Assembly: GCF_022867795.2 (NCBI RefSeq)
Contig: NZ_CP107006.1
Location: 744,001-808,000 of the forward strand
Source: Chitinophaga horti
Lineage (GTDB): Bacteria > Bacteroidota > Bacteroidia > Chitinophagales > Chitinophagaceae
Direction: 5' to 3'
DNA: 64,000 bases
Shown in pieces: positions 5,385 to 59,770 of the stretch. Under the pieces are notes generated by a model. The model made no database searches. It saw only the letters and a program-made list of their open reading frames with translations, and was not told where the DNA came from. The translations under genes and the position numbers were made by a program. Position 1 is the first letter of the stretch, and each line of letters begins with the position of its first letter.

Positions 5385-5420
5385 AAAGAAAAAGGCCGCA
5401 ATGTTGGAGCATTACGGCCT
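5385..5420 (-). terminator. Predicted antisense terminator in the susC leader, cassette 1
   Basis: On the plus strand an A-rich tract (5385-5393) runs into an 11-bp stem: left arm 5393-5403, six-base loop, right arm 5410-5420, all pairing with one G-U. No T-tract follows on the plus strand. Read on the minus strand it is a GC-rich hairpin followed by a U-rich tail, which is the shape of an intrinsic terminator. It would end an RNA coming out of susC about 60 bp upstream of the susC start. Equivalent elements occur in all five cassettes. Confidence 0.65.
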
Positions 5421-5483
5421 GTGTCTGGGTGAGTAATCTCGTTTTGCGTAACTGTAATTCTCAAAACCAAACATTTCAAATCT

Positions 5484-8400
5484 ATGCAATTTCTTGCAAA
5501 CTGCAAGGCCAGGCCTTTTATGTACATAAGGGGTTTGGGCTCATTACGATGTACAGCACAAATACTGCTGATTATGAGATTAACTTTTTGCCTGATTTTA
5601 GGGTTTACCTTACAGCTCAGCGCCGCCAGTTATGCGCAACAGGTGTCAATATCCGCTAAAGACGCCCGGCTGGAAACTGTTTTCCGCCAGATAAAAGAGC
5701 AAACGGGTTACACTTTTGTATACCGCACCGAGTGGATGCAAAACGCCAACCCGGTAGATATTAGTTTGAAGAACGCTTCGCTGGACGAGGCGCTCAACCT
5801 GTGTTTCAAAGACCAACCATTTACATACGCGATCACGCGCCGCACCATCGTGCTAAAGCAACGGCAGCCGGGTACACCGGCCACGCCCGTTGTAGTAGCC
5901 GATCCGATCGTGGTGAAAGGGCAGGTGGTGAATGCGGATGGCGACCCGGTGCCGGGGGCTTCTGTGTTACTGGCCGGCGCCAAAAATGGTGTGGTAACCG
6001 ATGCAAATGGTTACTTCTCGATCACTGCCCCTGAAGAGGGCGCAAAAATCAGGGTGTCGTTTATTGGCTTTGAAGACGCCGAGTTTAAGGCAAACACCAA
6101 AGGCAGCATTAAAATAAAACTGCAATTGAAAGACCAGAAGCTCGAGCAGGTGGTGGTAACGGGTATGATGAACCGCGATCGCAAAACGTTTTCCGGCGCT
6201 ACGGCTATGTACACCGGCGAACAACTGAAAACGGTAAGCAACGTGAACGTGATCCAGGGCTTGCGTACGCTCGATCCATCATTCCTGGTACTGGAAAATA
6301 ACCTGCAGGGCAGCAACCCGAATACCTTGCCTACTATCGAGCTGCGCGGACAAACGAGTATCTCTACTACGGCGCTGCGCGATGAATTTTCCATCGACCC
6401 GAATCAACCCTTATTCATTCTCGATGGTTTCCAGGCAAGCCTGCAACAGATCGTAGATCTCGATATAAACCGTGTGGCTTCTATCACTATCCTGAAAGAT
6501 GCGGCGTCTACGGCGATTTACGGTTCAAGAGCTTCCAACGGTGTGGTTGTCGTAGAAACGATCCGTCCGAAATCGGGACTCACTTCGGTATCGTATACGA
6601 ACGATATGACGTTCGAGTTCCCTGATCTGACCAGCTATAATCGTATGGATGCAGCGGAAAAACTTGAATTTGAGAGGCTTTCCGGTCGCTACCAGAACGG
6701 GCGTTTCGATAAAGCAGAAAGAAATCATTCGTTTTACCAGCCGCTCTATGCTTTCCGCCGTGCCGAGGTAGAGCGGGGTGTAAACTCTTACTGGCTCAGT
6801 GATCCTGTGCGCAACGGGGTGTCGCAACGGCACTCGCTGTACGTTGGCGGTGGCAACGATGCACTCACATTTGACATCGGGGGCAACTTCCGCAAGCAGG
6901 ATGGTGTAATGAAAGGCAGTGGTAAGCAGGATTGGGGAACCCGCCTGAATCTGTCTTACCGGAACAAAAACCTGCGTGTGAACAACAACCTGTATGTGGC
7001 CGGCGTAAAATCCACCGAGTCTCCTTACGGTTCCTTTGCTACCTGGGTAAACATGAATCCCTATTACCGCAAGGCGGATGCTTCGGTGCCCAACCTGGAG
7101 GAGTTCTTCGATCAGACTACGGGCGAGAGTGGTTTTATCACCAACCCATTGTACAATGCCATGCTTGCCAGCTACGATCGCGGTCGCACACTCTCCATTA
7201 CCAATAACCTGCAGGCGAACTACGACATCATGCCGGGGCTGCGGGCACAGGGTTCGTTACAGGTGGTGAAAAACACCAGTGAAGACAATACGTTCGTATC
7301 CCCACTCGATACCCGGTATCGCGAAACTTCGAATGAAGAAAAGGGGCAGTATACCATGAGGGGAGGCAACTCATTCTCTTATACAGCGGCAGGTCAGCTT
7401 ACCTACTACAAAAACATCAACAAAAATACGTTCAACGTAAACCTGCGCGCAGAAATGCAGGAATCAAAAAACCGTTCCGAGGGCTTTACTGCGATCGGTT
7501 TCCCGGCGGCGAGCAATGGTAATCCGCGTTTCGCCTACGGTTTTAAGGAAGGCAGTGCGCCCAGTGCCGCCAGCAGCATGTCACGCAGAAATTCTCTGGT
7601 AAGCACTTTCGCCTATTCTTACGATATGCGTTACAATGTGGATGCTACTTTTTCTTATGATGGATCTACTGCCTTCGGTATTGCCAATCCTTACTCTCCG
7701 TTCTACTCCCTCGGGGGCAGCTGGAACATGGAAAAGGAACGATTCATGCGCGACCTGCCCTGGGTAAACTCCCTGCGCCTGCGTGCAAACGCCGGGTTGA
7801 CGGGTAACCAGAACTTCAGTGCTACATCTTCTGTATCTACTTACAATTATACTGCTGCCTTTAATTACTTCGGTCAGGGTGTAACACTCACTACGCTCGG
7901 TAACCCGAACCTGAAGTGGCAGAACACCTTACAATACAGTGCTGGTCTGGACGCAAGCCTGTTCGAAAACCGTGTTTCCTTACAGGTGAACGCCTACCAG
8001 AAACTCACAGACCCACTGGTGGTGGCGATCACCCTGCCTTCCTCTACAGGTTTGAGTGATTATCCTTTTAACGCCGGCGACCTTACCGTGAGAGGCGTGG
8101 AGTTTACAGCGCGCGTGTCACCTGTCTTCAATCCCCGCGACCGTAAGGTGTGGACGATCGGCATTACGGGTTCCAAATACAGCCAGGTGTACGACCACTT
8201 CGATAACAGGCTGAGAGGCATGAACGAAAAACTGCGTAACAGCAATTCACTCACCCGCTACCGTGATGGCTATTCGCCGGACGATATATGGGCCGTACCC
8301 TCACTGGGCATCGATCCTGCTACCGGCCGCGAACTATTCCGCAAAATGGATGGTACGACCACATTTGACTTCGACTATGACGACCAGGTGGTGGTGGGTA

Positions 8401-8876
8401 ACACCAGGCCGATGTTACAGGGCGTACTCACCAACTCTGTTACTTTCAAAGGATTGTTCTGTACCCTCAACTTTCGCTACATCCTGAACCAGGACATCTT
8501 TAATAATGTACTGTATAACCGTGTGGAGAACATCAGTATGGCCAGCCTCATCCAGAATAACCAGGATAAACGTGCTTTGTACGAGCGTTGGAAAAAAACC
8601 GGTGACCAGTCGGAGTTCAAAAGTATATCGATCACGGACTATACGCCGATATCATCCCGCTTTGTGCAGCGCGAAAATACATTCACCATGGAAGCGGCCA
8701 ATATTGGTTACCAATTCCAGGACGCGCCATGGCTGAAGAAAGCCCGGTTGTCGAACCTGAAGGTGAGTGGTTATACGAACGAGATATTCCGCATATCCAA
8801 TATCAGGCGCGAAAGAGGAACGGAGTATCCTTACGCAAGGTCGTTTTCCTTTAGCCTGACTGCCAATTTTCAATAA
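5484..8876 (+). CDS. SusC/RagA-family TonB-dependent transporter with STN domain, cassette 1
   Basis: Outer-membrane TonB-dependent transporter of 1130 residues. A 30-residue leader precedes the signal peptide, which begins MRLTF at residue 31 and ends near ASYAQ. Then come the STN signalling domain (about 60-125), a carboxypeptidase-D-like beta-sandwich (about 145-215), the plug with the family motif ILKDAASTAIYGSRASNGVVVVET, and the 22-strand barrel ending in an aromatic residue region (SFSLTANFQ). It takes up substrate bound by the SusD partner and signals to FecR. The ATG at 5484 is preferred because the block before MRLT is conserved as protein in all five SusC copies. The substrate is unknown. 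Confidence 0.95.
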   Translation: MQFLANCKARPFMYIRGLGSLRCTAQILLIMRLTFCLILGFTLQLSAASYAQQVSISAKDARLETVFRQIKEQTGYTFVYRTEWMQNANPVDISLKNASLDEALNLCFKDQPFTYAITRRTIVLKQRQPGTPATPVVVADPIVVKGQVVNADGDPVPGASVLLAGAKNGVVTDANGYFSITAPEEGAKIRVSFIGFEDAEFKANTKGSIKIKLQLKDQKLEQVVVTGMMNRDRKTFSGATAMYTGEQLKTVSNVNVIQGLRTLDPSFLVLENNLQGSNPNTLPTIELRGQTSISTTALRDEFSIDPNQPLFILDGFQASLQQIVDLDINRVASITILKDAASTAIYGSRASNGVVVVETIRPKSGLTSVSYTNDMTFEFPDLTSYNRMDAAEKLEFERLSGRYQNGRFDKAERNHSFYQPLYAFRRAEVERGVNSYWLSDPVRNGVSQRHSLYVGGGNDALTFDIGGNFRKQDGVMKGSGKQDWGTRLNLSYRNKNLRVNNNLYVAGVKSTESPYGSFATWVNMNPYYRKADASVPNLEEFFDQTTGESGFITNPLYNAMLASYDRGRTLSITNNLQANYDIMPGLRAQGSLQVVKNTSEDNTFVSPLDTRYRETSNEEKGQYTMRGGNSFSYTAAGQLTYYKNINKNTFNVNLRAEMQESKNRSEGFTAIGFPAASNGNPRFAYGFKEGSAPSAASSMSRRNSLVSTFAYSYDMRYNVDATFSYDGSTAFGIANPYSPFYSLGGSWNMEKERFMRDLPWVNSLRLRANAGLTGNQNFSATSSVSTYNYTAAFNYFGQGVTLTTLGNPNLKWQNTLQYSAGLDASLFENRVSLQVNAYQKLTDPLVVAITLPSSTGLSDYPFNAGDLTVRGVEFTARVSPVFNPRDRKVWTIGITGSKYSQVYDHFDNRLRGMNEKLRNSNSLTRYRDGYSPDDIWAVPSLGIDPATGRELFRKMDGTTTFDFDYDDQVVVGNTRPMLQGVLTNSVTFKGLFCTLNFRYILNQDIFNNVLYNRVENISMASLIQNNQDKRALYERWKKTGDQSEFKSISITDYTPISSRFVQRENTFTMEAANIGYQFQDAPWLKKARLSNLKVSGYTNEIFRISNIRRERGTEYPYARSFSFSLTANFQ

Positions 8877-8895
8877 TCGTTAAAGTTATATACGG

Positions 8896-10293: not shown

Positions 10294-10327
10294 TCGATTT
10301 GATCATAGTCTTTAAAATCAATATAAG

Positions 10328-11152: not shown

Positions 11153-11178
11153 GTTGTTTACATTTTAAAGATGCGATC

Positions 11179-12735: not shown

Positions 12736-12758
12736 TTATTGTGATCAACCTGTTCCCC

Positions 12759-12881: not shown

Positions 12882-13448
12882 TTGTCCAGTTCACGTTATA
12901 ACGACCAATTGCTGCTCTCGCAAATAGCCGCCGGAAGCGAACCTGCCTTCTGTGCGCTGTTCGATCGTTATTGGCATAAGGTGTTCACCACGGCATTACT
13001 CTTCACCCGCTCCGAGCCTGTAGCGCAGGACATTGCGCAGGAGGTGTTCTTACAATTATGGCAACATCGCGAACGGGCAGCTACCATCGAAAAGGCGGAG
13101 AGTTACCTTTTTATCAGCGCCCGTAATCTCATTTTTAAGAAGATGAGCCGCCTGAAACTCGAAGATGCCTATCAACAATACGTTGCCGCGCAAGGTGTAC
13201 GCCAGGCAGCACCGTCGACCGGCACCACCGAATACAAAGAACTGCATTCCCTTGTGGAAACGGCCATCCGCCGCCTGCCCCCACAGCAGCAAAAGGCCTT
13301 TCGGTTAAGCCGGGAAGGTGGGCTAAGTCATGAAGAGATCAGCGCCCGGATGGGGGTAAGCCGCGCGGCGGTGAAAGATTACATCGTCCGGTCCATTTCT
13401 TTCCTGCGGAAATACCTGCGCGAACAGGCCTTATTCTGGCTGTTCTAA
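12882..13448 (+). CDS. ECF RNA polymerase sigma factor (FecI-like), cassette 2
   Basis: A 188-residue ECF sigma factor. The sigma-2 region contains ALFDRYWHKVFTTALLF and AQDIAQEVFLQLWQHRE. The sigma-4 region contains LPPQQQKAFRLSREGGLSHEEISARMGVSRAAVKDYIV. The start is TTG at 12882; there is no in-frame ATG nearby, and the N-terminus from this codon has normal family length. A short perfect inverted repeat, CCTAA/TTAGG (12850-12861), lies 20 bp upstream and overlaps a TAnnTTTA box at 12852-12859, possibly the promoter. The FecR partner follows 82 bp later. Confidence 0.92.
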   Translation: MSSSRYNDQLLLSQIAAGSEPAFCALFDRYWHKVFTTALLFTRSEPVAQDIAQEVFLQLWQHRERAATIEKAESYLFISARNLIFKKMSRLKLEDAYQQYVAAQGVRQAAPSTGTTEYKELHSLVETAIRRLPPQQQKAFRLSREGGLSHEEISARMGVSRAAVKDYIVRSISFLRKYLREQALFWLF

Positions 13449-13530
13449 AAGACCGGAAAAAATATTTTTATCCCGGCACTTCCTTTCTGCTTTTTCAGCG
13501 GTCTTTATATTACAGGCCAGCTTGTACGTT

Positions 13531-14697
13531 ATGAAAGAAGCGGATTTTCAATCACTCATGGAAAAATACGTGGCGAACGAACTCACGAAACAGGAGTTCG
13601 ATCAGCTATGGACTGCATTGCAGGAGCCGGGCCGCCGTGCTGCCTGGACGGCCTTCATGCACCAGGCCTGGGATGCCGCGGCATTCACAGAGCAGGGCAA
13701 GGCGGCGGCACTGGAGCAGCTGCTGCCACAAGTGCGAAAACGCCGCAGCGGTGTCGTAAAGAAACTCTCCTGGTGGGCCGCAGCCGCCTGTATGTTAAGC
13801 TTCGCCGCCGGCATCTTCTACTTCCAGGGCAAAAAAAAACTACCACCTTCCGGTCAGGTGGCCAGCGCCACGTCACCCAACACCGACATCCAACCCGGTC
13901 GTAACCGTGCCTTGCTGACATTGGCCGACGGCAGCATAGTGGAGCTGGACAGCACCGCCAATGGACTGGTAGGGCAGCAGGGTGGTACGAATGTGACCAA
14001 ACAATCCAACGGCCGCCTGGTGTACGAGCAGCAGGGCGCCGCCGCAGAAAATATGTACAACACGATGCGCACACCACGGGGCGGACAGTACCAGGTAGTA
14101 TTACCCGATGGCTCCAGGGTATGGCTGAATGCTGCATCTGCCGTAACTTACCCCGTCTCTTTCGGTAAAAAGGAGCGAAAGGTGAAGATCTCCGGCGAAG
14201 TGTATTTCGAAGTAGCGGCGAACGCAGCCAACCCTTTTGTCGTACAAATAATGAGCGAAACCGGCGAGGAGAAAGGCGTAGTCACGGTATTGGGAACGCG
14301 GTTCAATATCAACGCTTATGACAATGAAGGCGCTGCCACCACCACGCTGCTGAACGGCGCTGTAATCGTATCCCGCCAGGAAGAGCGCAAGCAATTGCAA
14401 CCGGGACAAAGAGCCGCGATGGGTAAGATCATAGAAGTGACGAGACCCGAAGACCTGGAGGGTGTAACGGCCTGGAAGGATGGCTATTTCAAATTTACAC
14501 AGGCAGACATTGGCTCGGTGATGCGGCAGGCAGAGCGATGGTACGATATAGAAGTACTTTATCCCAAAGGTGCGCCCGATGAGATATTCAGCGGTACACT
14601 GCCCCGAAACGTAAACCTGACACAGTTTTTAGATATCATGGTATACAGCGACGTAAAAGCGACTATACGCAGCAGGCAAGTAATCATAGAACAGTAA
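13531..14697 (+). CDS. FecR-family anti-sigma factor / signal transducer, cassette 2
   Basis: Inner-membrane anti-sigma factor of 388 residues from the ATG at 13531; a TTG three codons earlier is less likely. The cytoplasmic part is about 1-80, with a membrane segment around residues 82-98 (WWAAAACMLSFAAGIFYF). The FecR domain contains MRTPRGGQYQVVLPDGSRVWLNAAS and VKISGEVYFEV. The C-terminal DUF4974 part has MRQAERWYDIEV and ends in VIIEQ. It is paired with the upstream sigma gene and with the rhamnoglycan-type SusC downstream. Confidence 0.93.
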   Translation: MKEADFQSLMEKYVANELTKQEFDQLWTALQEPGRRAAWTAFMHQAWDAAAFTEQGKAAALEQLLPQVRKRRSGVVKKLSWWAAAACMLSFAAGIFYFQGKKKLPPSGQVASATSPNTDIQPGRNRALLTLADGSIVELDSTANGLVGQQGGTNVTKQSNGRLVYEQQGAAAENMYNTMRTPRGGQYQVVLPDGSRVWLNAASAVTYPVSFGKKERKVKISGEVYFEVAANAANPFVVQIMSETGEEKGVVTVLGTRFNINAYDNEGAATTTLLNGAVIVSRQEERKQLQPGQRAAMGKIIEVTRPEDLEGVTAWKDGYFKFTQADIGSVMRQAERWYDIEVLYPKGAPDEIFSGTLPRNVNLTQFLDIMVYSDVKATIRSRQVIIEQ

Positions 14698-14728
14698 TCA
14701 ATCAATATCTACCATAAACGGGTAAGAC

Positions 14729-14760
14729 AAAAAAGCCGGAAGTACGGGGGTACTGCCGGC
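14729..14760 (-). terminator. Predicted antisense terminator in the susC leader, cassette 2
   Basis: Six A (14729-14734) are followed by an 11-position stem: left arm 14735-14745, GGGG loop, right arm 14750-14760, one mismatch. On the minus strand it reads as a GCCGGC-type hairpin followed by six U, a standard intrinsic terminator shape. It lies 76 bp before the susC start. Confidence 0.7.
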
Positions 14761-14836
14761 ACGATGAGAACACCCGTATTTACAGCCAATTCAACAACCG
14801 TAGAACAGGGGAGCATCCCCAACAAACCACTAAGTT

Positions 14837-17800
14837 ATGAAATTTAAATTCGGCAATTCCACTGAAAAGGGCCGCGCTGCGCTGCTGTTGCAAAGATGGC
14901 GGCCATCCGGAAAAACGATCTTGGTTATGAAGCTCACAACGATTTTGTTGCTTGTTGCCTTACTCCAGTTAAAAGCAGAAGGCTTTAGCCAGCAGATTAC
15001 GCTGCAGGTTAAAAACGGCTCGCTGGACAAGGTGTTTGCCCAGCTGGGTAAACAAAGCGGGTATCACTTCTTTTTTAATGAAAGACTGATCAAAGACGCC
15101 CGCAAGGTATCTCTCAATTTACAGAACGCTACGTTGCAGGAAGCGCTGGACGCCTGTTTTACTGGCCAGCCCTTTAACTATGCAATTATTGATAAAACAG
15201 TGGTGGCCCGTAAAAAGACAGACCCGGGCCCCACGCCGAGGGCCGCTGCCGCGCCAGTGGTGATCACGATCAAAGGTCGTATCACCAGCGAAAAAGGCGA
15301 ACCCTTGCCCGGCGCCAGCGTAAAGCTGAAAAACAGCACGAAAGGCGCTACGTCCGATGCAAAGGGCGAATTCTCTTTTACCATTCCCGATGGTACGGAA
15401 GTCGTGCTGGAAGTAAGTATGCTGGGCTACAAACTGCAAACGATTACGCCCTCCGATCCCGCAAACGTGGTGATCGTATTAAAAGAAGAAGCAACTACGC
15501 TCGATAACCTCGTGGTAATCGGTTATGGTACGGCGCGCCGCCAGGACTTTACCGGTTCGGTAAGCTCTGTGAAAATGGAAGGTTCGCCGCTCGCCAGTCT
15601 GCCCAATATGAACGCGCTGGAAGTACTGAAAGGCAACGTATCGGGCCTGAGCATCGGTGCGACCAACTCCGCCGGTGGACAACCTTCTATGGTCATTCGC
15701 GGGCAGAACTCGATCAGCGGTAATAATGATCCGATGATTATCCTGGACGGTGTAGTATTCCTGGGCAGCATCGGTGATATCAACCCTAACGACATCGCCA
15801 GCTTTGATATATTGAAAGATGCTACGTCTGCTGCGGCTTACGGTTCCCGTTCTGCGAACGGCGTAATTGCCATCACCACCAAAAAAGGTCGTATCGGTAA
15901 GCCATCCATTTCATTTAACACTTCTACCGGCTTCCAGACCTGGCAAAATGAGCCGGAGATGATGAGGGGCGAAGAGTGGCTGGAAGTGGTGAACGCCCGT
16001 AACCGCTACGCTCCCGGTTCTACCAACTGGCTGAAGGCGGGAGAACTGGCCAACCGGGCTGCCGGCAAAGAAACCGTTTGGCTGGATGAAGTTACCCGTA
16101 CCGGTATTATCCAGAGCTACCAGGCGGCTGTTTCAGGCGCTACACAGCAAACGAACTATTACCTCTCTACTTCCTTCGATCAGAATAAAGGCATCATTAA
16201 AGGAGATGACTTTAAACGTGTTTCCCTGCTCGCGAAGCTGAATATGAACATTACTTCCTGGCTGGAAGTAGGGGCGGATGGTAGCTATACCAAACGTGAC
16301 TATTCCGGGGTGGCTGCCAATATAGGCGAGGCGCAGATGATGTCGCCGTACGGTGTAATGTACCGCGACAGCCTCGGTAATCTAGAAAAGTACCCGTATA
16401 CACAGGCGGCCATCAATCCGCTGTGGGGTGTGCAGGATGGTACCCGCGACAACATGGACATCGGCAACAACTTCCGCCTGAATGCCCATGCGCTGGTGAA
16501 AGTGCCGTGGATCGATGGGTTGAGCTATCGTGCTAACCTGGCGCTGAACCTGGATAAAGACAGGTCGGGCAACTTCTATTACGAGACTAACTTTGTCCAG
16601 GAAGGAGAAGGCATTGGCCGTTATTCGCCGTCTACCGTACAGGGCTTCCTGTCGAGGGCGAACGGCAATATCAATAACTACAGCAATTACAGCTACGTAA
16701 TCGATAACATCCTCAACTACCGCAAAACATTTGGTAAACACAGTGTTGATGCAACGGCAGTGTATACACGCGATTACTTTAAGTACGAGTCGGAAAACTC
16801 AACCGGCTCCGACTTCCAGGCGAATGGTAATACAGCGTTAGGTATGTATGGTTTGCAGACGGCAACCGTGCAGCGCGCAACAGTAGATATATGGGAACGC
16901 GCCAATATCGGTTACCTCATACGCGGTAACTACAATTACAACAATCGCTATTTCCTCACCGGGTCTTTCCGTCGCGATGGGGCTTCTGTATTCGGAGCGA
17001 ATAACAAGTGGGCAGATTTTGCCGCTGTGGGCGTGGCCTGGCGTATTACCGAGGAGGCGTTCATGAAAAACCTGCACTATCTCAATCACCTGAAACTGAA
17101 GTTTTCCTGGGGCCAGAATGGTAACCAGGGCATCGGCCCCTATGGTACCCTGTCGACCGTTGGCAACGGTGCGTCGGGCGGTGTGCGTTACCAGTTCTCA
17201 AATACAGGTAGCCAGATGTTTTATGGCCTCTTCCAGCGCGACCTCGGCAACTCCGACCTCGGTTGGGAAACAACAGAGTCCTGGAACGCGGGGTTCGAAT
17301 CTTCCTGGTTTAACGAACGCCTGTTCGTAGATCTCGATATGTATAAAGGTAAAACTACCGACCAGCTCTTTACCCGCAACATCCCGGTGATGACTGGTTT
17401 TAAGACCATGCGCACCTCCATGGGCCAGGTAGATAATAAGGGCGTTGAAATAACGGTACGTTCCGTAAACGTTAAACATTCGGATTGGGGTTGGACTACC
17501 GCAGCAACTTTCTGGCTGAACCGCAACAAACTGGTGAAGCTGTATGGTGAAGACAGGGATGGCGATGGTAAAGAAGACGATGACGTGTCCAGCGGCCTGT
17601 TCATCGGTCAGCCACTCTACGCTATCTATGGCTATGAACAAATCGGTATCGTTCAGGAAAGTGATACCACTTACACCCGCCTCACCGGCGCCGCGCCGGG
17701 TTCGCCGATGTACCGCGATTTTGATAAAACGCCCGGCATCAGCGCTACCGACCGTAAAATACTCGGCTACGCCCAGGATAATTTCCGCCTGAGCATGAGC

Positions 17801-35672: not shown

Positions 35673-35695
35673 GCCGGCACATTGCCGGCTTTTTT
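35673..35695 (+). terminator. Bidirectional-type intrinsic terminator
   Basis: A 7-bp stem (35673-35679 with 35683-35689) is flanked by eight A on the left and six T on the right. It ends the NamZ-like gene and isolates the sigma gene of cassette 3 downstream. Confidence 0.9.
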
Positions 35696-35750
35696 GCTGG
35701 AGAAAATCGTTTTTCGGTCAAACAAGGTGCTTTGCTTATCTTGCAGGAGA

Positions 35751-36365
35751 TTGGCCACTAATTCAGAACATCCGAAGTTGCACCGGGCAGTACTCAGTAA
35801 CGAACACCTTTTGGTGCGGACAGCCGCCGATGGCGATCAGCTGGCCTATGCGCAGCTTTACACCCATTACTACCCCAGTTTACAGGCAGCCATCAACTTC
35901 ATTACCCAAAACAGCGACGAAACAGACGAACTGCTGCAGGAAACCTTTCTGCGCATCTGGAAGGTGCGGGAAAAACTGTTGCTGGTTAAGTCTTTCGAGA
36001 ACTATGCCTTTAAGATCGCCCGCAACCTGTTATTCGACCAGCTACGGCGGCAGAAGGTGCATCTTCGGGCCATAGAAGCCCTGGCCCATCGTGCCGCGTC
36101 GCCCGAGCCAGATCATCTCGAATACAAGGAACTGCACGACCTGGCCACCGGTGCTATCGATCGCCTGGATCCCCAGCGGCGGGAAATCTTCCTTTTGCGT
36201 ACAGAGGAGGGACTCAGTTTTGAAGATATCGCCGCCCGTTACGGGCTGGCCGTCGTAACGGTCAAAAAACATTATTACGCAGCCTATCACTCGCTAAAAT
36301 CGCTGCTGGAGCAGCATGGCGGCCCACTTTCCCTCATTTTCCTCCTCTGGATCGGGAAAAAATAA
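35751..36365 (+). CDS. ECF RNA polymerase sigma factor (FecI-like), cassette 3
   Basis: A 204-residue ECF sigma factor from the TTG at 35751; longer frames run back into the terminator hairpin. The sigma-2 region has AQLYTHYYPSLQAAINFI and TDELLQETFLRIWKVRE. The sigma-4 region has LDPQRREIFLLRTEEGLSFEDIAARYGLAVVTVKKHYYAAYHSL. A TATCTTGC stretch about 12 bp upstream may be the promoter -7 box, which would give a very short leader. The FecR partner follows 63 bp later. Confidence 0.9.
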   Translation: MATNSEHPKLHRAVLSNEHLLVRTAADGDQLAYAQLYTHYYPSLQAAINFITQNSDETDELLQETFLRIWKVREKLLLVKSFENYAFKIARNLLFDQLRRQKVHLRAIEALAHRAASPEPDHLEYKELHDLATGAIDRLDPQRREIFLLRTEEGLSFEDIAARYGLAVVTVKKHYYAAYHSLKSLLEQHGGPLSLIFLLWIGKK

Positions 36366-36428: not shown

Positions 36429-37553
36429 ATGACCGACCAAACAAAACTATCACTCATTAACAAATATAAAGCGGGTCAACTTACCGAGGAGGAAGAAGCG
36501 TCGTTCTTCGCCTGGTACCGGGAGGTGACCCTTGACGAACTGCATCAGCTGTTACAAATGGGCGACCAACCGCCTGCTTACCAGGAGGCAAGCCCGGAGT
36601 TCCTGGCCGCCATGCAGCAACGTTTGCAGGAGCCGGCCAAAGTACGTAAGCTGCAACCCCGCTTGTGGTGGGCTGCCGCAGCGGTGTTGCTGGTGGCCGG
36701 AAGTGTTTACCTGCTCCGTCCCGCAACAAAGCCGGTGGATGTAGTGGTGACAGCTTCGGCGGATGTGGCGCCCGGCAAAAACGGCGCGGTGCTCACCCTC
36801 GCCAACGGCCAGCAGGTATCGCTGGACAGTTTGGCTGATGGTGTTGTAGCCAATCAGCAAGGTACGAACGTAGTGATGCAGAATGGTAGTCTGCACTACC
36901 ATGCAGATGAGGCAAGCGGCAGTGCTTATAACACGATCAGCACGCCACCGGCCCGCCAGTTCCGGCTCACGCTACCCGACGGCTCGCTGGTATGGCTGAA
37001 TGCAAAAAGCTCCATTCGCTATCCAACGGCCTTTACAGGCGCGAACAGAACGGTGGAAGTAAACGGAGAAGCCTACTTCGAAGTAGCTAAAAACGCTGCC
37101 CGTCCATTCCGCGTACAATTAAAGAACGCGACGGTAGAAGTGCTGGGCACACATTTCAATCTCAATGCTTATGATGATGAGCCTTCGGTGCGTGCAACCT
37201 TGCTGGAAGGCAGCATCCGCGCGGTGAAAGGAACGGAAGGAGTAGTGTTGCAACCGGGGCAGCAGGCAGACATAGAAACGAGTATCAGGGTAAAAGAAAA
37301 TATCAACACAAACCAGGTAGTGGCCTGGAAGGACGGCACTTTCAACTTTGACCAATTAGGAGTAGAAGAAGTAATGCGGCAATTGTCGCGGTGGTACGAC
37401 ATCGAGATCGTTTATGAGAAAGGCGTACCAGTGAACAAATTTTATGGGGAAATCGGCCGCAACCTGAACCTTTCACAGGTGTTAGACGGCTTAAAAGCAT
37501 CGGGTGTGAATTTCAGAATAGAAGAAAATAAGCGGCTGATCGTATTGCCGTAA
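36429..37553 (+). CDS. FecR-family anti-sigma factor / signal transducer, cassette 3
   Basis: Inner-membrane anti-sigma factor of 374 residues. The cytoplasmic N-terminus is about 1-75, with a membrane segment at about 78-95 (LWWAAAAVLLVAGSVYLL). The FecR domain contains FRLTLPDGSLVWLNAKSS, VEVNGEAYFEV and VEVLGTHFNLNAY. The hallmark TPRGG is changed to TPPAR here, a deviation from the other four copies in the window. The DUF4974 C-terminus has MRQLSRWYDIEI and ends in RLIVLP. Confidence 0.93.
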   Translation: MTDQTKLSLINKYKAGQLTEEEEASFFAWYREVTLDELHQLLQMGDQPPAYQEASPEFLAAMQQRLQEPAKVRKLQPRLWWAAAAVLLVAGSVYLLRPATKPVDVVVTASADVAPGKNGAVLTLANGQQVSLDSLADGVVANQQGTNVVMQNGSLHYHADEASGSAYNTISTPPARQFRLTLPDGSLVWLNAKSSIRYPTAFTGANRTVEVNGEAYFEVAKNAARPFRVQLKNATVEVLGTHFNLNAYDDEPSVRATLLEGSIRAVKGTEGVVLQPGQQADIETSIRVKENINTNQVVAWKDGTFNFDQLGVEEVMRQLSRWYDIEIVYEKGVPVNKFYGEIGRNLNLSQVLDGLKASGVNFRIEENKRLIVLP

Positions 37554-37574: not shown

Positions 37575-37610
37575 AAAACCAAAACCGCTCTGAGGTAGGA
37601 TTCAGAGCGG
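37575..37610 (-). terminator. Predicted antisense terminator in the susC leader, cassette 3
   Basis: Two A4 blocks (37575-37578 and 37581-37584) precede a perfect 9-bp stem (37585-37593 with 37602-37610, eight-base loop). On the minus strand this is a GC hairpin followed by UUUU-GG-UUUU, a somewhat weaker U-tract than in the other cassettes. Confidence 0.55.
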
Positions 37611-37721
37611 CGAAAGTCAGGGTGAACGATAGACAATTATTTAAGGGAAACTGTTTTTTCAATCAACCTAACCAATTGCAAGTTATGCAAAAAATTGCTT
37701 TGTAACCGGCAGGGCCGTGCT

Positions 37722-48839: not shown

Positions 48840-49442
48840 ATGATGCAGTATCTTCCACATAGTGAAAGTACCTTGTTACGCCTGCTTGCAGGTGGTGACC
48901 AGCATGCATACCAGCTCCTCTTCGAACGTTACTGGGACCCAATTTACTCCACCGCCTTAATACTGACCAAATCGCCATCACTGGCCGAAGATGTGGCGCA
49001 GGATGTGTTTACCATGCTTTGGGAAAAACGCGCGTCCATGGCTGCAGTGGAAAAGCTGGAGAACTTCCTGTTCATCGCCGCCCGCAACACCATCTACACC
49101 CGCCTGCGTAAACTTTCTTCCGGCAAGGCCTACCGCGACTACCTGCTGCAAACTTTCCGGGAAACGGAAGGGGCGGGGGTAGACGAGCAGGCAGAGTTCC
49201 GGGAACTGGAGCAGCGTGTGATGCACGTGATCCAACAGTTGCCGCCGCAGCAGCAAAAGGCTTTTAAACTGAGTCGCTTCGAGGGCATGCGCCACGAGGA
49301 GATTGCCGTGGCCATGGGTTTATCGCGGGTCACGATCAAAAGTTATATTGTGCAGGCCATCGCCACGCTACGTAAAGCGCTGGCTAACAATCCTTCCGGG
49401 GCACTTATACTCTTATGGGGACTTCTCTTTTGGGGCAGATAA
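48840..49442 (+). CDS. ECF RNA polymerase sigma factor (FecI-like), cassette 4
   Basis: A 200-residue ECF sigma factor. The sigma-2 region contains QLLFERYWDPIYSTALIL and AEDVAQDVFTMLWEKRA. The sigma-4 region contains LPPQQQKAFKLSRFEGMRHEEIAVAMGLSRVTIKSYIVQAIATLRKAL. It is most like the cassette 2 sigma factor within the window (shared FERYW/FDRYW and QQQKAFxLSR). The ATG start is in a typical context. The FecR partner follows 72 bp later. Confidence 0.93.
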   Translation: MMQYLPHSESTLLRLLAGGDQHAYQLLFERYWDPIYSTALILTKSPSLAEDVAQDVFTMLWEKRASMAAVEKLENFLFIAARNTIYTRLRKLSSGKAYRDYLLQTFRETEGAGVDEQAEFRELEQRVMHVIQQLPPQQQKAFKLSRFEGMRHEEIAVAMGLSRVTIKSYIVQAIATLRKALANNPSGALILLWGLLFWGR

Positions 49443-49514: not shown

Positions 49515-50657
49515 ATGGACCAGCACACATTTTCCGCTTTACTGGAAAAGTATCTCAACGACGACCTGAGCCAGGAAGAGCTTTCCCGGCTGCTGGACTC
49601 ATTGCAGGACGAAAATCTCCGCCGGCAATGGGAATCTGCAATTGGCGGCATGCTCGCCAATCCGCAGCTGCACGGACTATCCGATCGTGCGCAGATGGAC
49701 CGGGTGCGTAAGGCCATTCTCCGTAAACCACTTTATCGCAGACTGTTACCGTATGCCGCCGCCGCTGCCGTGTTATTCCTGGCTGCTGCCGGGCTTTTCT
49801 ATATGAACGTTACGCCCACTGTCAAGCCGCTGATGCCCACGGCGCAACAAGCTCCGGCAGTTCTTCCGGGTGGTAATAAGGCCATGCTGACGCTGGCTGA
49901 TGGCAGCCAGATCACACTTGACAGTGCCGGTAATGGTGCCATTGCCAGTCAGGGTAACGTACAGGTTATCAAACTGAATAATGGTCAACTCGCCTACCAG
50001 GCCAACGGCGCCAAACAGGCGGCCGGGTATAATACACTGGTAACGCCCCGCGGCGGCCAGTACCGCATTCAGCTGCCCGATGGTTCGGAAGTATGGTTGA
50101 ACGCCGCTTCCAGCCTGCGTTTTCCTACGGTATTTGACGGGCCTGAGCGCGAAGTGCAGTTGAAGGGCGAGGCCTATTTCGAAATCGCGCAGAACAGTCA
50201 GCAACCTTTCAGGGTAAAGGTGGATGATATGACCGTACAGGTGTTGGGTACACACTTTAACGTGATGGCTTATGCGGACGAGCAGCATGTGCGCACCACT
50301 TTGTTACAAGGGGCGGTGAAGGTCATGCAGGGGAGCAGTTCCCTGCATCTGCGGCCGGGCCAGCAGGCGGAAGCGCGCGGTACACAGGCGTTACAGTTAC
50401 GCGAAGGGGTGAACCTGGAGCAGGTAGTCGCCTGGAAAAACGGGTACTTCCAGTTTAACCACGAACCGTTAGAAGGGGTACTGCGGCAGATCGGCCGCTG
50501 GTATGATGCGGAAATAGTCTATGAAGGAAAAGTGCCCGACCGCGAATTTGGCGGACAAATATCCCGCAACAGCAGTATCACAGAAGTGCTTAAGATGTTA
50601 GAACTCACGAATGTACGCTTCCGGGTAGAAGGAAAGCGGATTGTCGTCACGCAATAG
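49515..50657 (+). CDS. FecR-family anti-sigma factor / signal transducer, cassette 4
   Basis: Inner-membrane anti-sigma factor of 380 residues. The cytoplasmic part is about 1-75, with a membrane segment at about 78-96 (LLPYAAAAAVLFLAAAGLFYM). The FecR domain contains TLVTPRGGQYRIQLPDGSEVWLNAASSLRFP and VQLKGEAYFEIA. The DUF4974 C-terminus has LRQIGRWYDAEIVY and ends in RIVVTQ. It is followed by an unusually long 280-bp leader with repeated sequence before susC. Confidence 0.93.
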   Translation: MDQHTFSALLEKYLNDDLSQEELSRLLDSLQDENLRRQWESAIGGMLANPQLHGLSDRAQMDRVRKAILRKPLYRRLLPYAAAAAVLFLAAAGLFYMNVTPTVKPLMPTAQQAPAVLPGGNKAMLTLADGSQITLDSAGNGAIASQGNVQVIKLNNGQLAYQANGAKQAAGYNTLVTPRGGQYRIQLPDGSEVWLNAASSLRFPTVFDGPEREVQLKGEAYFEIAQNSQQPFRVKVDDMTVQVLGTHFNVMAYADEQHVRTTLLQGAVKVMQGSSSLHLRPGQQAEARGTQALQLREGVNLEQVVAWKNGYFQFNHEPLEGVLRQIGRWYDAEIVYEGKVPDREFGGQISRNSSITEVLKMLELTNVRFRVEGKRIVVTQ

Positions 50658-50799: not shown

Positions 50800-50809
50800 C
50801 AAAGCCCAT

Positions 50810-50841
50810 AAAAAACCGGAACCGATGGCCGTCGGTCCCGG
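50810..50841 (-). terminator. Predicted antisense terminator in the susC leader, cassette 4
   Basis: Six A (50810-50815) are followed by a 10-position stem (50816-50825 with 50832-50841, one mismatch, loop of six). On the minus strand it is a CCGGGACCGA-type hairpin ending in six U. It lies 96 bp before the susC start. Confidence 0.7.
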
Positions 50842-50937
50842 CGAAATTTATCAGGGCAATCACCAGCTGTTAATTGGCATCTCCACGTCCACTGGCAAAA
50901 GCCGGGCGGGATTTTATTACCCTAACAAACCAAAATT

Positions 50938-53900
50938 ATGCTTTTTAGTATTATTCATGCGCGGTATTTAAAAAGGCGCCCGTACGCACAAACACTGCTC
51001 GTTATGAAGCTAACCGTTTTACTCTTATTGTCTGCCTGCCTGCAACTCAGCGCCCGGGGTTACGCGCAGCAGGTTACGTTGTCGGAGCGTAATATATCCC
51101 TGGAGCGGTTGTTCCGCTATTTTGAAAAACAAACCGGCTACGGATTTTTCTATGATCATCAACTGATCGACAAAGCGCCGAAGGTAACGGTAGACTTTAA
51201 AAACACACCGCTCGAAAAAGCGATGGAAACCGCACTGAAAGATCAGCTGCTGGCCTATTCCATCGTAGGCAAAAATGTAGTCATCAAACAGAAAGACCTA
51301 TACATGAACCTGGGACCAGTGAAAGTGCTGCTCCAGGATACGACGGTGAAAGCCGAAGGGCGCGTCACCGATTCGAAAAACGAACCTTTGCCCGGTGCTA
51401 CCGTGGTAGACAAAGCCACGGGGAAAGGTACCGCTACCGATGTGAAAGGCTTCTTTTCCCTTCGGGTGGCACGTGGTGCTGTACTTACCATTTCTTACCT
51501 GGGTTACAAAAGTCAGGATGTACAGGTGGTAAATGCGCAGCCCATTGAAATACAGTTGGCTGACCAGGTGAATGTGACAGACGAAATTGTAGTGGTAGGT
51601 TATGGCACCGTGCGTAAAAGCGATCTTACCGGTTCGCTGTCGCAGGTAAAGTCTAAAGACATTACAGCTTTCCCCACTACGAACGTGATGCAGGCCCTGA
51701 ATGGCCGCGCTGCCGGCGTAAGGGTAATGCAGAACGGTGGCGCACCGGGTGGCGGCGTCAGCATCAGGATAAGAGGTACGAACTCTATTCTTGGTGGCAA
51801 CGATCCGCTTTATGTGATCGACGGATTTCCTTACAATGGTAATCCTACGTTCCTTCAAAACTCCGATATCGCCTCCGTCGAAATTCTGAAAGATGCATCT
51901 TCAACAGCTATCTACGGCTCCCGTGGCGCAAACGGTGTGGTGATGATCACGACCAAAAGCGGGCGTAAAAATGATTTTACTTCGGTAGATATCGATGCCA
52001 GTTACACACAGCAGATGGTATCTAAAAAGATGCCTTTGATGAACGCGCAGCAATACGCGTTACTGTATAACGAGCAGGCGAAGAACGACGGACTGGCACC
52101 TTATTTCACCCAACCGTATATCGATAGCCTGGGTGGCGTAAAAGGCACCGACTGGCAGGACCTGGTATTGCGTAAAGCACCTATCTACACCGTAAATGCT
52201 ACTGTGAACGGCGGTACACAAAAAACAAAATTCTCACTCGGTACCAGCGCATTCCTGCAGGAAGGTATTATCCGTTCCAGCGACTACAAACGTTATAACC
52301 TGCGCGCCAACATCGAGCATGACATCAATAAAGTATTCACCGTATCGTTCAACAGCATTCTTACCCGCCTGAACAGCGCGCGCCAGAACTCAGGTTTGGG
52401 CAACCGCGGTAGCGACCTGATATCTGCCATGCTGATGGCGCCGCCTTCTGTAACGCCTTATCTTCCCAATGGTACGTATCGCAGGCTGAATACGGCTTAT
52501 CCGTTTATCTCCAACGCAATCATCAACCCACTGGTCTTTATTAACGAACAGCGCGACGTGATTAAAAGCGATCGGGTATTTGCGAATGCAGCAGTGATGA
52601 TTAAACCGTTGGATGGCCTGACCATTCGTCTTTCCGGCGGTATAGATAATATCAACGATCGCACAGACCAATACTCGAATATTGAGCCGACTGTAAACTC
52701 TGTAGGTAACGCAAATATCGCTACCACGCAGCAAACAGGTATGCTGAGCGAAAACACCGCTACTTATCAGAAGGAGTTTGGCAAACATTCATTTACCGCG
52801 CTGGCTGGGTTCACTTACCAGGATAACGTAACCACCAGCCTCAATGGCTCTGGTGCCGGCTTCCTGAGTGATGTGTTGGGCACTGGAAACATCCAGGGGG
52901 CCAGTACGCCAGGCATTCCGGGTAGTGGATATTCCAAATGGGTGCTGTTATCTTATCTCGGCAGGTTAAATTATACGCTGAATGATAAATACCTTTTCAC
53001 GGCGAGCATCCGTCGCGATGGTTCTTCCCGCTATTCGAAACAGAACCAGTGGGAGAATTTTCCGTCTGCAGCCGTGGCCTGGAAAGCTTCTAACGAGGAA
53101 TTTCTGAAGAAATCCGAATTGATTTCTGATTTGAAGGTGAGAGCGACTTACGGCCTCTCCGGTAATACATCGCTGGGTCCTTATCAAACGTTGAACCTCT
53201 TGGGGTCCAATAACACCATTTTCGGAGATGCGCTATTCGTATCCTACGCACCTGGCACCGTATTGCCCGGCGACCTTAAATGGGAAGTAACCCGCCAGAT
53301 GGATATTGGTGCGGAAGTAGGTTTGTTTAAAAACGATTTGCGTCTGACATTCGACTATTATCGCAAGAAAACCGTGAACGTACTCAATACCGTATTCCTG
53401 CCACGTTCCTCCGGTTATCAAACCACACTGAAGAACGTAGGGGAGATGGAAAACAAAGGCATCGAACTGGGCATTGATGCGGTGATCCTGAAAAACGATG
53501 TAAGCTGGACAATGAACGGTAACATCGCGTTCAACCGTAATAAAGTTGTGAAATTGTACGATGGGCAAGACATTTACGGTAGCGCGTTCTACACCGGTTC
53601 GTTAAACGATGCCGTAAACCTGTTACGGGAAGGCGAGCCGTTAGGCGTATTTTACGGTTATAAAGAAATTGGTTATACCTCTACAGGCAACCTGGCTTAT
53701 GAAGATGTAACGAAAGATGGCGCCATCAGTGCAGCCGATAAAATGATCATCGGCGATCCCAACCCAGACTTCATTTACGGCCTCAACTCCGTAACCAGTT
53801 GGAAAGGATTGGAGCTGACCGTATTCGTGCAAGGTTCGTATGGTAACGACATATTCAACCTGAACAAGGCATCCTCCATGGACCTTGGCATGGGTCTGAA

Positions 53901-54261: not shown

Positions 54262-54287
54262 TTTGTTTTACCATATAATCATCTTGT

Positions 54288-55736: not shown

Positions 55737-55753
55737 TCAATCAATATAACAGA

Positions 55754-57715: not shown

Positions 57716-57743
57716 ACCCACGTTCACTGCGGTCTTAAAGATA

Positions 57744-57771
57744 GCGGGTGCCTTCTTGCGGGGGCACCCGC
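57744..57771 (+). terminator. Hairpin ending cassette 4
   Basis: A perfect 9-bp GC stem (57744-57752 with 57763-57771, loop of ten) lies 28 bp after the stop. The tail is TTGTCTGTG, so termination may be incomplete. Confidence 0.6.
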
Positions 57772-57837
57772 TTGTCTGTGGCATCCTTTCCCCCGAAAAA
57801 TTATTATTTTTAACCCTGGTTTTAATTAAATGGTCAA

Positions 57838-58494
57838 TTGTCCGGGCAAGGGTTAAATAACGAAAGTGAATTGTTGTCGAGAACCGCGGGTGGCGATGAG
57901 TACGCCTTTCGGGAACTAATGCTTGCTTATCAGCCCCTGTTACTTACCTACGTATACCAGCTCACCCGCTCCGAAAGTCATACGGAAGAGATCGTGCAGG
58001 ATGTTTTCCTCAAGATCTGGATGGGTCGCGAAGCGCTCGAAGGGGTGCATCGCTTCAAAAACTATCTCTTTATCATTTGTCGCAACTACGCACTCGACCA
58101 GCTTCGCAAGCTGGTACGGGAACGCGAACTTGCGGCTGAATGGGAAACCGAGCAAGAGCATACGGCCGCCGGCAGCCCGGCAGACACCGACGAACAGGTG
58201 TACACCCTGCTCGATGAAGCCGTGAACCACTTACCGCCGCAGCAACAAAAAGTTTACCTGATGGCCCGCCGCCAGGGACTACCGCATGCCGAGATTGCAC
58301 GGCAAACTGGCTTGTCGGTACTTACCGTCAAGAAATATATGAAGCTGGCGATCGCCGCCATTACCGAATACATCCGTTCGCGCCTGCCGGGCGTTTCGCT
58401 GGTATGGATAGCCATGCTCACCGGACTCGATATTATTTTTAAAAAAATTTCAGGAGCGATGGCCCCCCGGCCACTTTTTTTCCGTCTTTATTAA
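57838..58494 (+). CDS. ECF RNA polymerase sigma factor (FecI-like), cassette 5
   Basis: A 218-residue ECF sigma factor from the TTG at 57838. The sigma-2 region contains ELMLAYQPLLLTYVYQLT and TEEIVQDVFLKIWMGREAL. The sigma-4 region contains LPPQQQKVYLMARRQGLPHAEIARQTGLSVLTVKKYMKLAIAAITEYI. A hydrophobic C-terminal tail (about 185-205, GVSLVWIAMLTGLDIIF) ends the protein; short hydrophobic tails are also seen in other sigma genes of this window. No in-frame ATG fits better. The FecR gene follows 17 bp later, the closest spacing of the five cassettes. Confidence 0.9.
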   Translation: MSGQGLNNESELLSRTAGGDEYAFRELMLAYQPLLLTYVYQLTRSESHTEEIVQDVFLKIWMGREALEGVHRFKNYLFIICRNYALDQLRKLVRERELAAEWETEQEHTAAGSPADTDEQVYTLLDEAVNHLPPQQQKVYLMARRQGLPHAEIARQTGLSVLTVKKYMKLAIAAITEYIRSRLPGVSLVWIAMLTGLDIIFKKISGAMAPRPLFFRLY

Positions 58495-58511
58495 TAGCAG
58501 CCAGATAGATT

Positions 58512-59657
58512 ATGCAAGAGAAAGCGATCCAGGAATTATTCCACCGTTACATGAACGGCACTGCCTCCCCGGAAGAGGAGCAGCTGCTGAAAGCCTCGCT
58601 GCGTGAGCGTAACGATGAACATCGCCTGGAGCTGCTGGAAGCTGAGTGGGAAGGTTTAACACAGCCGGACGAGCGTTATGCGCAGTACGACGTGGAAGCC
58701 TCCTGGCGTAAAATTACGGCGCAACAGCCCGCGCGTGTGTTTACGATGCGCCGCTGGGCATGGGCAGCCGCAGCAGCTTTGCTCGTAGCGACGGGCGGCA
58801 CGTACCTGTTAACGCGTGAGCAGCCGGTTCAACAGGTGGTGGTTACTGCACCAATGCCGGATGTGGCGCCTGGTACGAATAAAGCCGTGCTGGTATTGGC
58901 CGATGGATCTACGGTTAGGCTCGATAGTGCAGGCAATCAGGTGTTGCAGCAGGGCGCCACTACCGTGAAGCAACAAGGCGGCCAGTTAGTATATGACGAA
59001 AACGGAAGCGCTGCTTCTGTAACTTATAATACCCTGCAAACGCCCCGTGGAGGCTTATTCCGCGTGACCTTGCAGGATGGAACGAATGTGTGGCTGAATG
59101 CTGCATCGGCTCTCCGTTATCCCACCGCGTTTGTTGGTAAGGAAAGAGTGGTGGAGATAACGGGTGAGGCTTACTTTGAAGTGGCCCGGGATGTGCGCCG
59201 GCCGTTTAAAGTACAAATGGGAAAAGAGGCCGCTATTGAGGTCTTGGGTACCAGTTTTAACGTAAATAACTATGCCAGCGAAACCGCCTCCCGTACAACC
59301 CTGTTGAGCGGAGCGATCCGTGTAACGGCAGGCGGGCAGGCGGTTACTTTAAAACCAGGCCAGCAGGCCAGTCTGGCACCAGATATAAAGATTGCGCAGG
59401 ATGCGGACCTGGGTAAGGTGGTCGCCTGGAAGAACGGCGTATTTGACTTTGATGATGTAAGTTTGCAGGATGCCATGCGCCAGATAGAGCGCTGGTATGA
59501 TATAGATGTTGTTTATGAGCACGGAATACCGGGAATTGTTTTTGGAGGAAAATTACCTAGAAATATCAGCCTGAAAGAGCTGCTGGCAGCCTTAGAGGAG
59601 TCAGGCGTTCAGTTTAGAATAGATGGGGAAAAACTTATCGTAACAAATAAACAATAA
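58512..59657 (+). CDS. FecR-family anti-sigma factor / signal transducer, cassette 5
   Basis: Inner-membrane anti-sigma factor of 381 residues. The cytoplasmic part is about 1-80, with a membrane segment at about 82-98 (WAWAAAAALLVATGGTYLL). The FecR domain contains TLQTPRGGLFRVTLQDGTNVWLNAASALRYP, VEITGEAYFEVA and IEVLGTSFNVNNY. The DUF4974 C-terminus has MRQIERWYDIDVVY and KLPRNISLKELLAALEESGVQF. Confidence 0.93.
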   Translation: MQEKAIQELFHRYMNGTASPEEEQLLKASLRERNDEHRLELLEAEWEGLTQPDERYAQYDVEASWRKITAQQPARVFTMRRWAWAAAAALLVATGGTYLLTREQPVQQVVVTAPMPDVAPGTNKAVLVLADGSTVRLDSAGNQVLQQGATTVKQQGGQLVYDENGSAASVTYNTLQTPRGGLFRVTLQDGTNVWLNAASALRYPTAFVGKERVVEITGEAYFEVARDVRRPFKVQMGKEAAIEVLGTSFNVNNYASETASRTTLLSGAIRVTAGGQAVTLKPGQQASLAPDIKIAQDADLGKVVAWKNGVFDFDDVSLQDAMRQIERWYDIDVVYEHGIPGIVFGGKLPRNISLKELLAALEESGVQFRIDGEKLIVTNKQ

Positions 59658-59681
59658 TCAATAAGCGGAGAATGCATAACA

Positions 59682-59698
59682 ATCATGTTTTACATGAT
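59682..59698. promoter_or_regulatory. Perfect short inverted repeat in the cassette 5 leader
   Basis: ATCATGT and ACATGAT flank TTT, 25 bp after the fecR stop and 44 bp upstream of the antisense-type terminator. It could be an operator or a small RNA hairpin. Confidence 0.4.
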
Positions 59699-59741
59699 AT
59701 AGGAAAGCTATGCCTAGAGTATAAAAAATCTGTCAACCAAT

Positions 59742-59770
59742 AAAAAACCGGAAGTGGTCAGACTCCCGGT
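59742..59770 (-). terminator. Predicted antisense terminator in the susC leader, cassette 5
   Basis: Six A (59742-59747) lead into a 9-position stem (59747-59755 with 59762-59770, one mismatch, loop of six). On the minus strand it is a GC hairpin followed by six U. It lies 56 bp before the susC start. Confidence 0.7.

Follow-up and report, generated by a model that had tools for sequence, protein, structure and literature searches.

Introduction

DonS and related RNAs of Bacteroides fragilis are encoded in cis as antisense to the leader of susC, in loci with extracytoplasmic function (ECF) sigma/anti-sigma control, and they repress these loci. Here we describe candidate RNAs of this kind in a 64,000-nucleotide stretch of Chitinophaga horti DNA (hereafter the window; positions 744001-808000 of the host contig, the host genome being a single contig of 6.3 Mb), in which five cassettes each carry an ECF sigma factor gene and a fecR anti-sigma gene upstream of a susC gene. 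An earlier note on this DNA had pointed to a minus-strand terminator in each of the five fecR-susC gaps and had predicted a DonS-like antisense RNA ending there. Our analysis makes it very likely, as far as sequence can tell, that these gaps hold a dedicated, structured, DonS-like antisense RNA gene, and we give a probability of about 0.72 to the reading that each unit is a small gene opposite susC whose RNA, transcribed from a housekeeping promoter, works like DonS as a brake on susC.

In published work the DonS family is described as 78-128 nt long, with ten further DonS-like RNAs reported in 2020 (PMC7366714); 32 annotated antisense RNAs of polysaccharide utilization loci (PULs) lie opposite susC homologs in B. 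thetaiotaomicron, according to a study of 2024 in which pairs of antisense RNA and susC show both anticorrelation and positive correlation (PMC10994844); antisense RNAs for 15 B. fragilis PULs are cited by PMC9723704; and according to PMC11697453 it is unknown how DonS acts. The promoter of the Bacteroidota housekeeping sigma factor (sigma-ABfr) is given as TAnnTTTG at -7 with TTTG at about -33 (PMC7366714); TAnnTTGY is a promoter motif in its own right, SM5, in Flavobacterium psychrophilum (PMC9723704). No report of such RNAs in Chitinophaga or Pedobacter was recognised among the titles and abstract openings by which the literature was judged. Rfam gave no match at gathering score in the window or in 20 related loci, and the two matches below threshold at window positions 5300-5600 had E values above 1.

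Antisense terminators in the fecR-susC gaps

All five gaps contain an A-tract followed by a hairpin, as the earlier note had it, and on the minus strand every one of them reads as a GC-rich hairpin with an immediate U-tract, that is, as an intrinsic terminator; the T-run on the plus side is absent from all five. The computed minus-strand hairpins lie at 5393-5420 in cassette 1 (11 pairs, -17.3 kcal/mol, tail TTTTCTTTAC), 14735-14760 in cassette 2 (-14.5 kcal/mol, tail TTTTTTGTCT), 37584-37611 in cassette 3 (-17.2 kcal/mol), 50815-50842 in cassette 4 (-18.8 kcal/mol) and 59747-59770 in cassette 5 (-12.5 kcal/mol). Measured from the hairpin end to the noted susC start, the distances are 63, 76, 83, 95 and 56 nt, which leaves the previously given range of 56-112 roughly right.

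Under a strict definition (at most 34 nt, -12 kcal/mol or better, a good U-tract) an antisense terminator is present in 33 of the 63 fecR-susC gaps of the host genome, and in 35/64 and 18/30 of the fecR-susC gaps looked at in two further genomes, G015, of the same genus, and G001. When gaps of 80-500 nt were compared in a sample of about 1.25 Mb of the host genome, strict antisense terminators were found in 27/46 fecR-susC gaps against 11/157 other codirectional gaps (Fisher p 4.8e-13); the distribution of sense terminators was the reverse (2/46 against 44/157).

The hairpins are also conserved. Among the 44 reciprocal ortholog pairs that form our comparison set between the host and G015, both members have a strict hairpin in 20, neither in 17 and only one in 7, and the hairpin is kept in 20/24 ortholog pairs. 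In the window, all pairs of the cassette 2 and cassette 3 stems (10/10 each) are unchanged in G015_L200 and G015_L110; the hairpin of cassette 1 is kept in G015_L190 and G001_L145, that of cassette 5 in G015_L109 and that of cassette 4 in G015_L104, the last with 8 pairs the same, 1 changed on one side, 1 double change and 1 broken. The notion that such hairpins arise by chance can appeal to the 11 antisense hairpins among the 157 other gaps; the enrichment, the conservation in orthologs and the recurrence in other genera (see below) speak against it, and it is left with a practically negligible probability, the gap controls and the orthologs having refuted it.

The strand on which the stems act is indicated by their wobble pairs. 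In a strand-neutral search for stems after A-tracts, 88 stems in 157 loci of the three genomes carried 119 G-U pairs on the minus strand against 30 on the plus strand (45 against 9 in the host genome alone), with the reservation that the loci include orthologs and paralogs, so that p-values overstate their independence. Ordinary sense terminators of other gaps likewise favour the strand they belong to (65 against 23).

The stems had been said to differ between cassettes, which is largely the case, apart from the CCGGAA (plus strand) that cassettes 2, 4 and 5 have in common. Several antisense terminator stems elsewhere in the genome fit by eye the pattern GCCGG..GTG..CAC..CCGGT, which might reflect copying from cassette to cassette or a shared constraint. 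In cassette 4 the gap contains, besides the antisense terminator, a second hairpin that resembles a plus-strand terminator and has a T-run (about 50882-50911, -13.8 kcal/mol); it sits between the antisense terminator and susC and is a possible sense attenuator.

A predicted minus-strand promoter at the susC start codon

No convincing minus-strand promoter had been noticed by eye in the earlier note. The gaps aligned at the susC ATG do show a candidate: the string CAAANNTATG, the minus-strand reading of which is TAnnTTTG, so that a predicted -7 box lies over the susC start codon. With in-frame ATGs of the first 40 codons allowed, CAAANNTATG is found at 19/62 fecR-linked susC starts against 2/761 other starts. 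It was found at 0/19 readable susC genes away from fecR (20 genes were taken among 56 listed of 200 candidates), and in these same 19 genes the TAnnTTGY form and the antisense hairpin each occur once.

The box goes together with the hairpin. When both box forms are counted and the hairpin is defined in a strand-neutral way, the box accompanies 22/35 hairpin loci against 2/28 others in the host, 25/36 against 6/28 in G015 and 13/17 against 2/13 in G001. In the window, the minus-strand box of cassette 1 (5477-5484) is the exact TAGATTTG (plus strand CAAATCTA), shares the A of the susC ATG and is identical in the G015 ortholog, and cassette 4 has the exact TAnnTTTG as TAATTTTG at 50931-50938 (minus strand). 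Cassette 2 has an imperfect box on the same strand, TAACTTAG at 14830-14837, with one mismatch to TAnnTTTG and the same sequence in the G015 ortholog. The minus-strand boxes of cassettes 3 and 5 are of the TAnnTTGY type, TAACTTGC at 37678-37685 and TAAATTGC at 59829-59836, the latter placed at a second in-frame ATG (59836), and both are identical in their G015 orthologs. Upstream of the box, cassette 1 has a minus-strand TTG at 5504-5506, reading CTTG, with a 19-nt spacer to the -7 box, and it is the only one of the five with a -33 TTG at this spacing. A generic sigma-70 scan, which is unsuited to this phylum, found no more promoter-like sites than expected by chance (20 against 20.9).

A minus-strand terminator at this spot would equally be accounted for if the hairpin were an insulator only, shielding fecR and the sigma factor gene from stray antisense transcription. 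We regard this as very improbable, given that it leaves unexplained the -7 box at the start codon, the co-occurrence of box and hairpin and the 5' stem described below.

By eye, an inverted repeat of the type TTACAAAAGT..ACTTTTTGTAA extends over both the susC ATG and the predicted antisense promoter in the loci 687713, 3523264 and 1003080, where it is a possible operator. As a general operator around the susC ATG the repeat was rejected: no locus other than 687713 and its ortholog exceeds the score threshold, and the comparison of native with swapped partners gave p values of 0.025, 0.036 and 0.62.

Conservation around the start codon

In the ortholog pairs that have a box of either form it is unchanged in 18/18, with 144/144 nucleotides identical. 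Around the ATG, positions -20 to +26 form a block with 94% identity (794/846) in these pairs, against 74% beyond the block; in 9 pairs with the hairpin and without an exact box the values are 92% and 78%, and the 17 pairs that lack the unit show 72% and 70%. In size the conserved block corresponds to a core promoter, which would read out of susC. Within the coding part, the synonymous codon used is the same in 107/113 cases for codons 2-9, against 374/616 further on.

Cassette 3 offers a natural variant. At 37685-37705 it has two bases fewer than G015_L110 just after the conserved ATG, and the frame shifts into TAA; its susC must therefore start downstream of that ATG. Box and terminator are unchanged despite this frameshift.

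Predicted RNAs and their fold

For the prediction of the RNA ends, +1 was set at ATG-12, from the box position of -12 to -5 in Flavobacterium (PMC9723704), and the 3' end was set in the U-tract. The predicted minus-strand RNA of cassette 1 would then extend over 5386-5472 (87 nt; 5' end 5472, U-tract end 5386) and consist of a 5' stem and the terminator; those of cassettes 2 to 5, on the same strand, would cover 14728-14825 (98 nt), 37577-37673 (97 nt), 50808-50926 (119 nt) and 59740-59824 (85 nt). Over 59 loci the predicted length has a median of 90 nt and a range of 70-159 nt, mostly 70-130 nt. The earlier note had let the RNA run from inside susC to the hairpin. Its end, a DonS-like RNA terminating at the hairpin, is strongly supported by the box tied to the hairpin, the strand-biased structure and the conservation; its start needs correction, the predicted promoter being in the first susC codons and the predicted +1 some 12 nt ahead of the ATG.

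For each of the five window RNAs the minus strand gives a better fold than the plus strand, with z values, terminator included, of -5.67 against -2.15, -2.95 against -2.34, -5.93 against -2.43, -3.44 against -1.47 and -4.01 against -1.76 for cassettes 1 to 5; an alignment of the five with each other is not meaningful. With the terminator left out, the 5' domain has a mean antisense z of -2.13 in the host (32 loci), -2.44 in G015 (33) and -2.50 in G001 (17), against -0.27, -0.29 and -0.93 on the sense strand (z from dinucleotide shuffles; where a locus had no box, the first ATG beyond the hairpin served instead). The first nucleotides of the RNA pair with those just before the terminator in 27/32, 31/33 and 15/17 loci of the three genomes, respectively. 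The usual architecture is a 5' stem, then mostly 2-8 nt, then the terminator hairpin, and nucleotide 1 is the first paired base in 44/59 loci. Among the loci found with the cassette 1 SusC, a box, a hairpin and a two-stem RNA with this architecture can be derived for 11/14; the other 3 do not yield them.

The stems are specific to their loci: native pairing of 5' and 3' parts beats pairing between loci, with 0/5000 permutations in each of the three genomes. When the 5' boundary was scanned in steps of 1 nt, the native advantage peaked at ATG-12 in the host (-4.36 kcal/mol, 20 loci), ATG-11 in G015 (-3.21, 25 loci) and ATG-10 in G001 (-3.20, 14 loci), and it was gone by ATG-20 and ATG+0 in the host and G015, the two genomes scanned that far. 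Promoter geometry and fold, which are two separate predictions, thus agree on the 5' end to within 2 nt.

Since folding favours the antisense strand, the RNA itself, beyond antisense transcription alone, probably matters. It could be supposed instead that the transcription itself is what counts, polymerase from the susC start codon occluding or colliding with the ECF-dependent susC promoter and the terminator protecting fecR. In 13 box pairs the stretch from terminator to ATG is 78% identical, against 61% for gap sequence upstream of the hairpin, as would fit a sense promoter within the antisense gene, and some host loci have fewer than 40 nt between terminator and ATG, which is little leader to pair. 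Selection for an antisense-favouring fold that begins at the predicted +1 implies, however, that the RNA product matters, and we consider interference by transcription unlikely as the whole explanation. A search of 45 gap bodies and their upstream parts for two-block motifs and 6-mers that might represent the sense ECF promoter yielded for the most part A/T-rich pairs and a string of the CAACCAAA type.

An RNA with its own promoter, terminator and fold might also have its main target elsewhere, as a trans-acting small RNA or a protein-binding RNA, its place opposite susC setting only the timing; AACCAA, which is UUGGUU near the RNA 5' end, occurs in 20/45 units (from a list without some minus-strand loci). 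The tie to fecR-susC pairs, the near absence from the 19 other susC genes sampled and the locus-specific 5' stems speak against such a target, which seems distinctly improbable to us. Independently of this, ATCAAC/CAACCA strings are over-represented upstream of the hairpin and beside the antisense RNA 5' end in many fecR-susC gaps.

The overlap of the box with the start codon suggests one more possibility, that the elements act on the sense strand, the hairpin as a leader hairpin or attenuator of the susC mRNA and CAAANNTATG as a signal for translation initiation. Translation in Bacteroidota is helped by A-rich sequence upstream, and sense folding and pairing are slightly above background. Nevertheless, the wobbles point to the minus strand, in two of the three genomes the 5' domain read as sense folds close to background, the plus-side T-run is lacking, the box is absent from 759/761 other gene starts, and cassette 3 keeps box and stem though the frame after that ATG is shifted. 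We take sense action to be extremely improbable; as the main explanation it is ruled out by wobble direction, sense folding, sense pairing and sense terminators.

Evidence on the other side

Several results weigh against a dedicated antisense RNA gene or narrow its reach. A strict hairpin is missing from 30/63 host fecR-susC gaps, the gaps without the unit being shorter (host median 106 against 173 nt; below 75 nt in 9/30 against 1/33), and six loci of G015 have a box but no strict hairpin. Of the five cassettes, 1 and 4 alone carry the -7 box in its exact form. The signal for a -33 element is weak: with orthologs counted separately, [CT]AA occurs at +20 in 19/70 motif loci of the three genomes against 6/60 controls, the only higher [CT]AA count (33, at +3) reflecting codon 2. 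The early synonymous codons are retained more in pairs without the unit as well (54/72 against 288/589).

As for structure, the swap test gives a smaller native advantage on the sense strand too (p 0.007, 0.006 and <0.001), the cassette 1 ortholog in the nearest relative (L069) has a poor 5' stem with a z of -0.3, and RNAalifold on a MAFFT alignment of 10 cassette 1 relatives returned 4 pairs, all in the terminator, and no 5' stem. In the 5' domains of 26 ortholog pairs, 307 base pairs are unchanged, 76 are kept through change, 98 are broken and 37 gapped; sense-strand stems give 215, 38, 92 and 35. By these counts the antisense strand does better than the sense strand, but not cleanly.

Distribution beyond the host genus

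Outside the genus, a strict antisense hairpin is present in 7/27 loci from 16 genomes, and the box as well in four of the seven, namely L226 and L233 (G065), L224 (G060) and L230 (G093). Under a laxer hairpin threshold, genus g29, which belongs to another family of the class, shows the hairpin in 9/18 further gaps and the box in 6 of the 9, and the family of G093 shows both elements in 2/13 readable gaps (L230 and L241). Complete units with strong 5' stems are present in Pedobacter sp. MR2016-24 and ASV28 (z -3.8 and -2.6); in P. nyackensis box and hairpin are farther apart, and in Sphingobacterium cellulitidis no box was found in the stretch scanned. The 18/23 out-of-genus loci that could be folded have a mean z of -2.73 antisense and -1.05 sense. 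As the RNA ends pair in only 8 of these 18, a stem closed at the 5' end may be characteristic of Chitinophaga and some Pedobacter.

Proposed function

We infer, from sequence in the one case and by analogy in the other, that the RNA is made and that it would repress susC. According to the brake model, a housekeeping-type Bacteroidota promoter, with its TAnnTTTG -7 box over the susC start codon and a weak -33 element in codons 7-8, would start transcription about 12 nt upstream of the ATG; the transcript would cross the susC leader toward fecR and end at the hairpin. The antisense RNA would be made while FecR holds the cognate ECF sigma factor, and leaky susC expression would be kept low via pairing with the leader and/or convergent transcription across the susC promoter, until FecR releases the sigma factor. 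A second, glycan-specific brake on top of FecR, as proposed in the earlier note, is by the same analogy plausible.

A wider interpretation is offered tentatively, at somewhat less than even odds. The units may represent a large undescribed class of structured cis-encoded RNAs in Chitinophaga and relatives, present in about half of the fecR-susC gaps (20-35 per genome), whose own 5' stems, kept by pairing with their own partners, would make them mutually insulated switches that add an RNA-level threshold to transporters under sigma/anti-sigma control; the promoter sharing the start codon would make antisense initiation and susC expression mutually exclusive.

Genes of the five cassettes

The ECF sigma factor genes of cassettes 1 to 5 (3432-4034, 12882-13448, 35682-36365, 48840-49442 and 57838-58494) all encode sigma-70 regions 2 and 4 (Pfam), and the fecR genes (4087-5247, 13522-14697, 36429-37553, 49515-50657 and 58512-59657) all encode FecR and FecR_C domains. 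The susC gene of cassette 1, the presumed target of its antisense RNA, occupies 5484-8876, and those of cassettes 2 to 5 start at 14837, 37695, 50938 and 59827; STN, carboxypeptidase-regulatory-like and Plug domains are present in every one, and all these genes are on the plus strand. The check for a SusD domain covered cassette 1. The closest match outside the host genome is a SusC 77% identical, in G015.

The susC of cassette 1 has a second in-frame ATG at 5574-5576, 30 codons in, within a TTATGARRYTNAC-like string that is also found in cassettes 2 and 4. This second ATG may precede the signal peptide, and the N-terminal extension of the cassette 1 SusC may or may not be translated. In the host genome as a whole the FecR_C profile has 79 matches, 66 of them in fecR-sized frames, and for 63 of these 66 a susC-sized frame starts less than 1 kb downstream. 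The other 13 lie inside susC-sized frames right after a fecR gene (e.g., contig positions 845083-845283 and 1093706-1093894); the N-terminal part of SusC carries the STN domain, and FecR_C and STN may resemble each other.

Comparison with known systems

The present results extend the arrangement of antisense RNA and susC from gut Bacteroides to Chitinophaga, Pedobacter and relatives. They supply predicted RNA ends, place the predicted promoter on the susC start codon and show a strand-biased structure. If the RNA product matters, the mechanism becomes directly testable by point mutations, and CAAANNTATG at the start with an A-tract hairpin upstream may serve as a sequence rule for genomes without RNA-seq.

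Among structured antisense RNAs, the plasmid-encoded RNAI and CopA are short and act in cis, with stem-loops opposite a leader. The units described here would resemble them as short cis-antisense stem-loop RNAs opposite a leader, and differ in that the gene concerned is a transporter gene and not a replication gene. With respect to the sigma-ABfr promoters, the exact -7 box is shared by cassettes 1 and 4 and by the 19 of 62 fecR-linked susC starts, whereas the -33 element is weak here and cassettes 3 and 5 match TAnnTTGY (SM5) instead.

The likeness to DonS is the closest. DonS is described as a short RNA divergently encoded opposite the susC homolog of a glycan locus, and a position next to the susC 5' end is found in all five cassettes; the window RNAs, predicted at 85-119 nt, fall within 78-128 nt, with a few of the 59 loci outside that range; and ECF sigma/anti-sigma control is predicted from the genes for an ECF sigma factor and FecR that lie upstream in 5/5. 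The differences lie in the hosts, which here are Chitinophaga, Pedobacter and relatives, and in the number of units, with 33 strict hairpin cases in one genome. In the Chitinophaga units the predicted features are a box that shares the susC start codon, a 5' stem usually closed at nucleotide 1 and a terminator that follows it.

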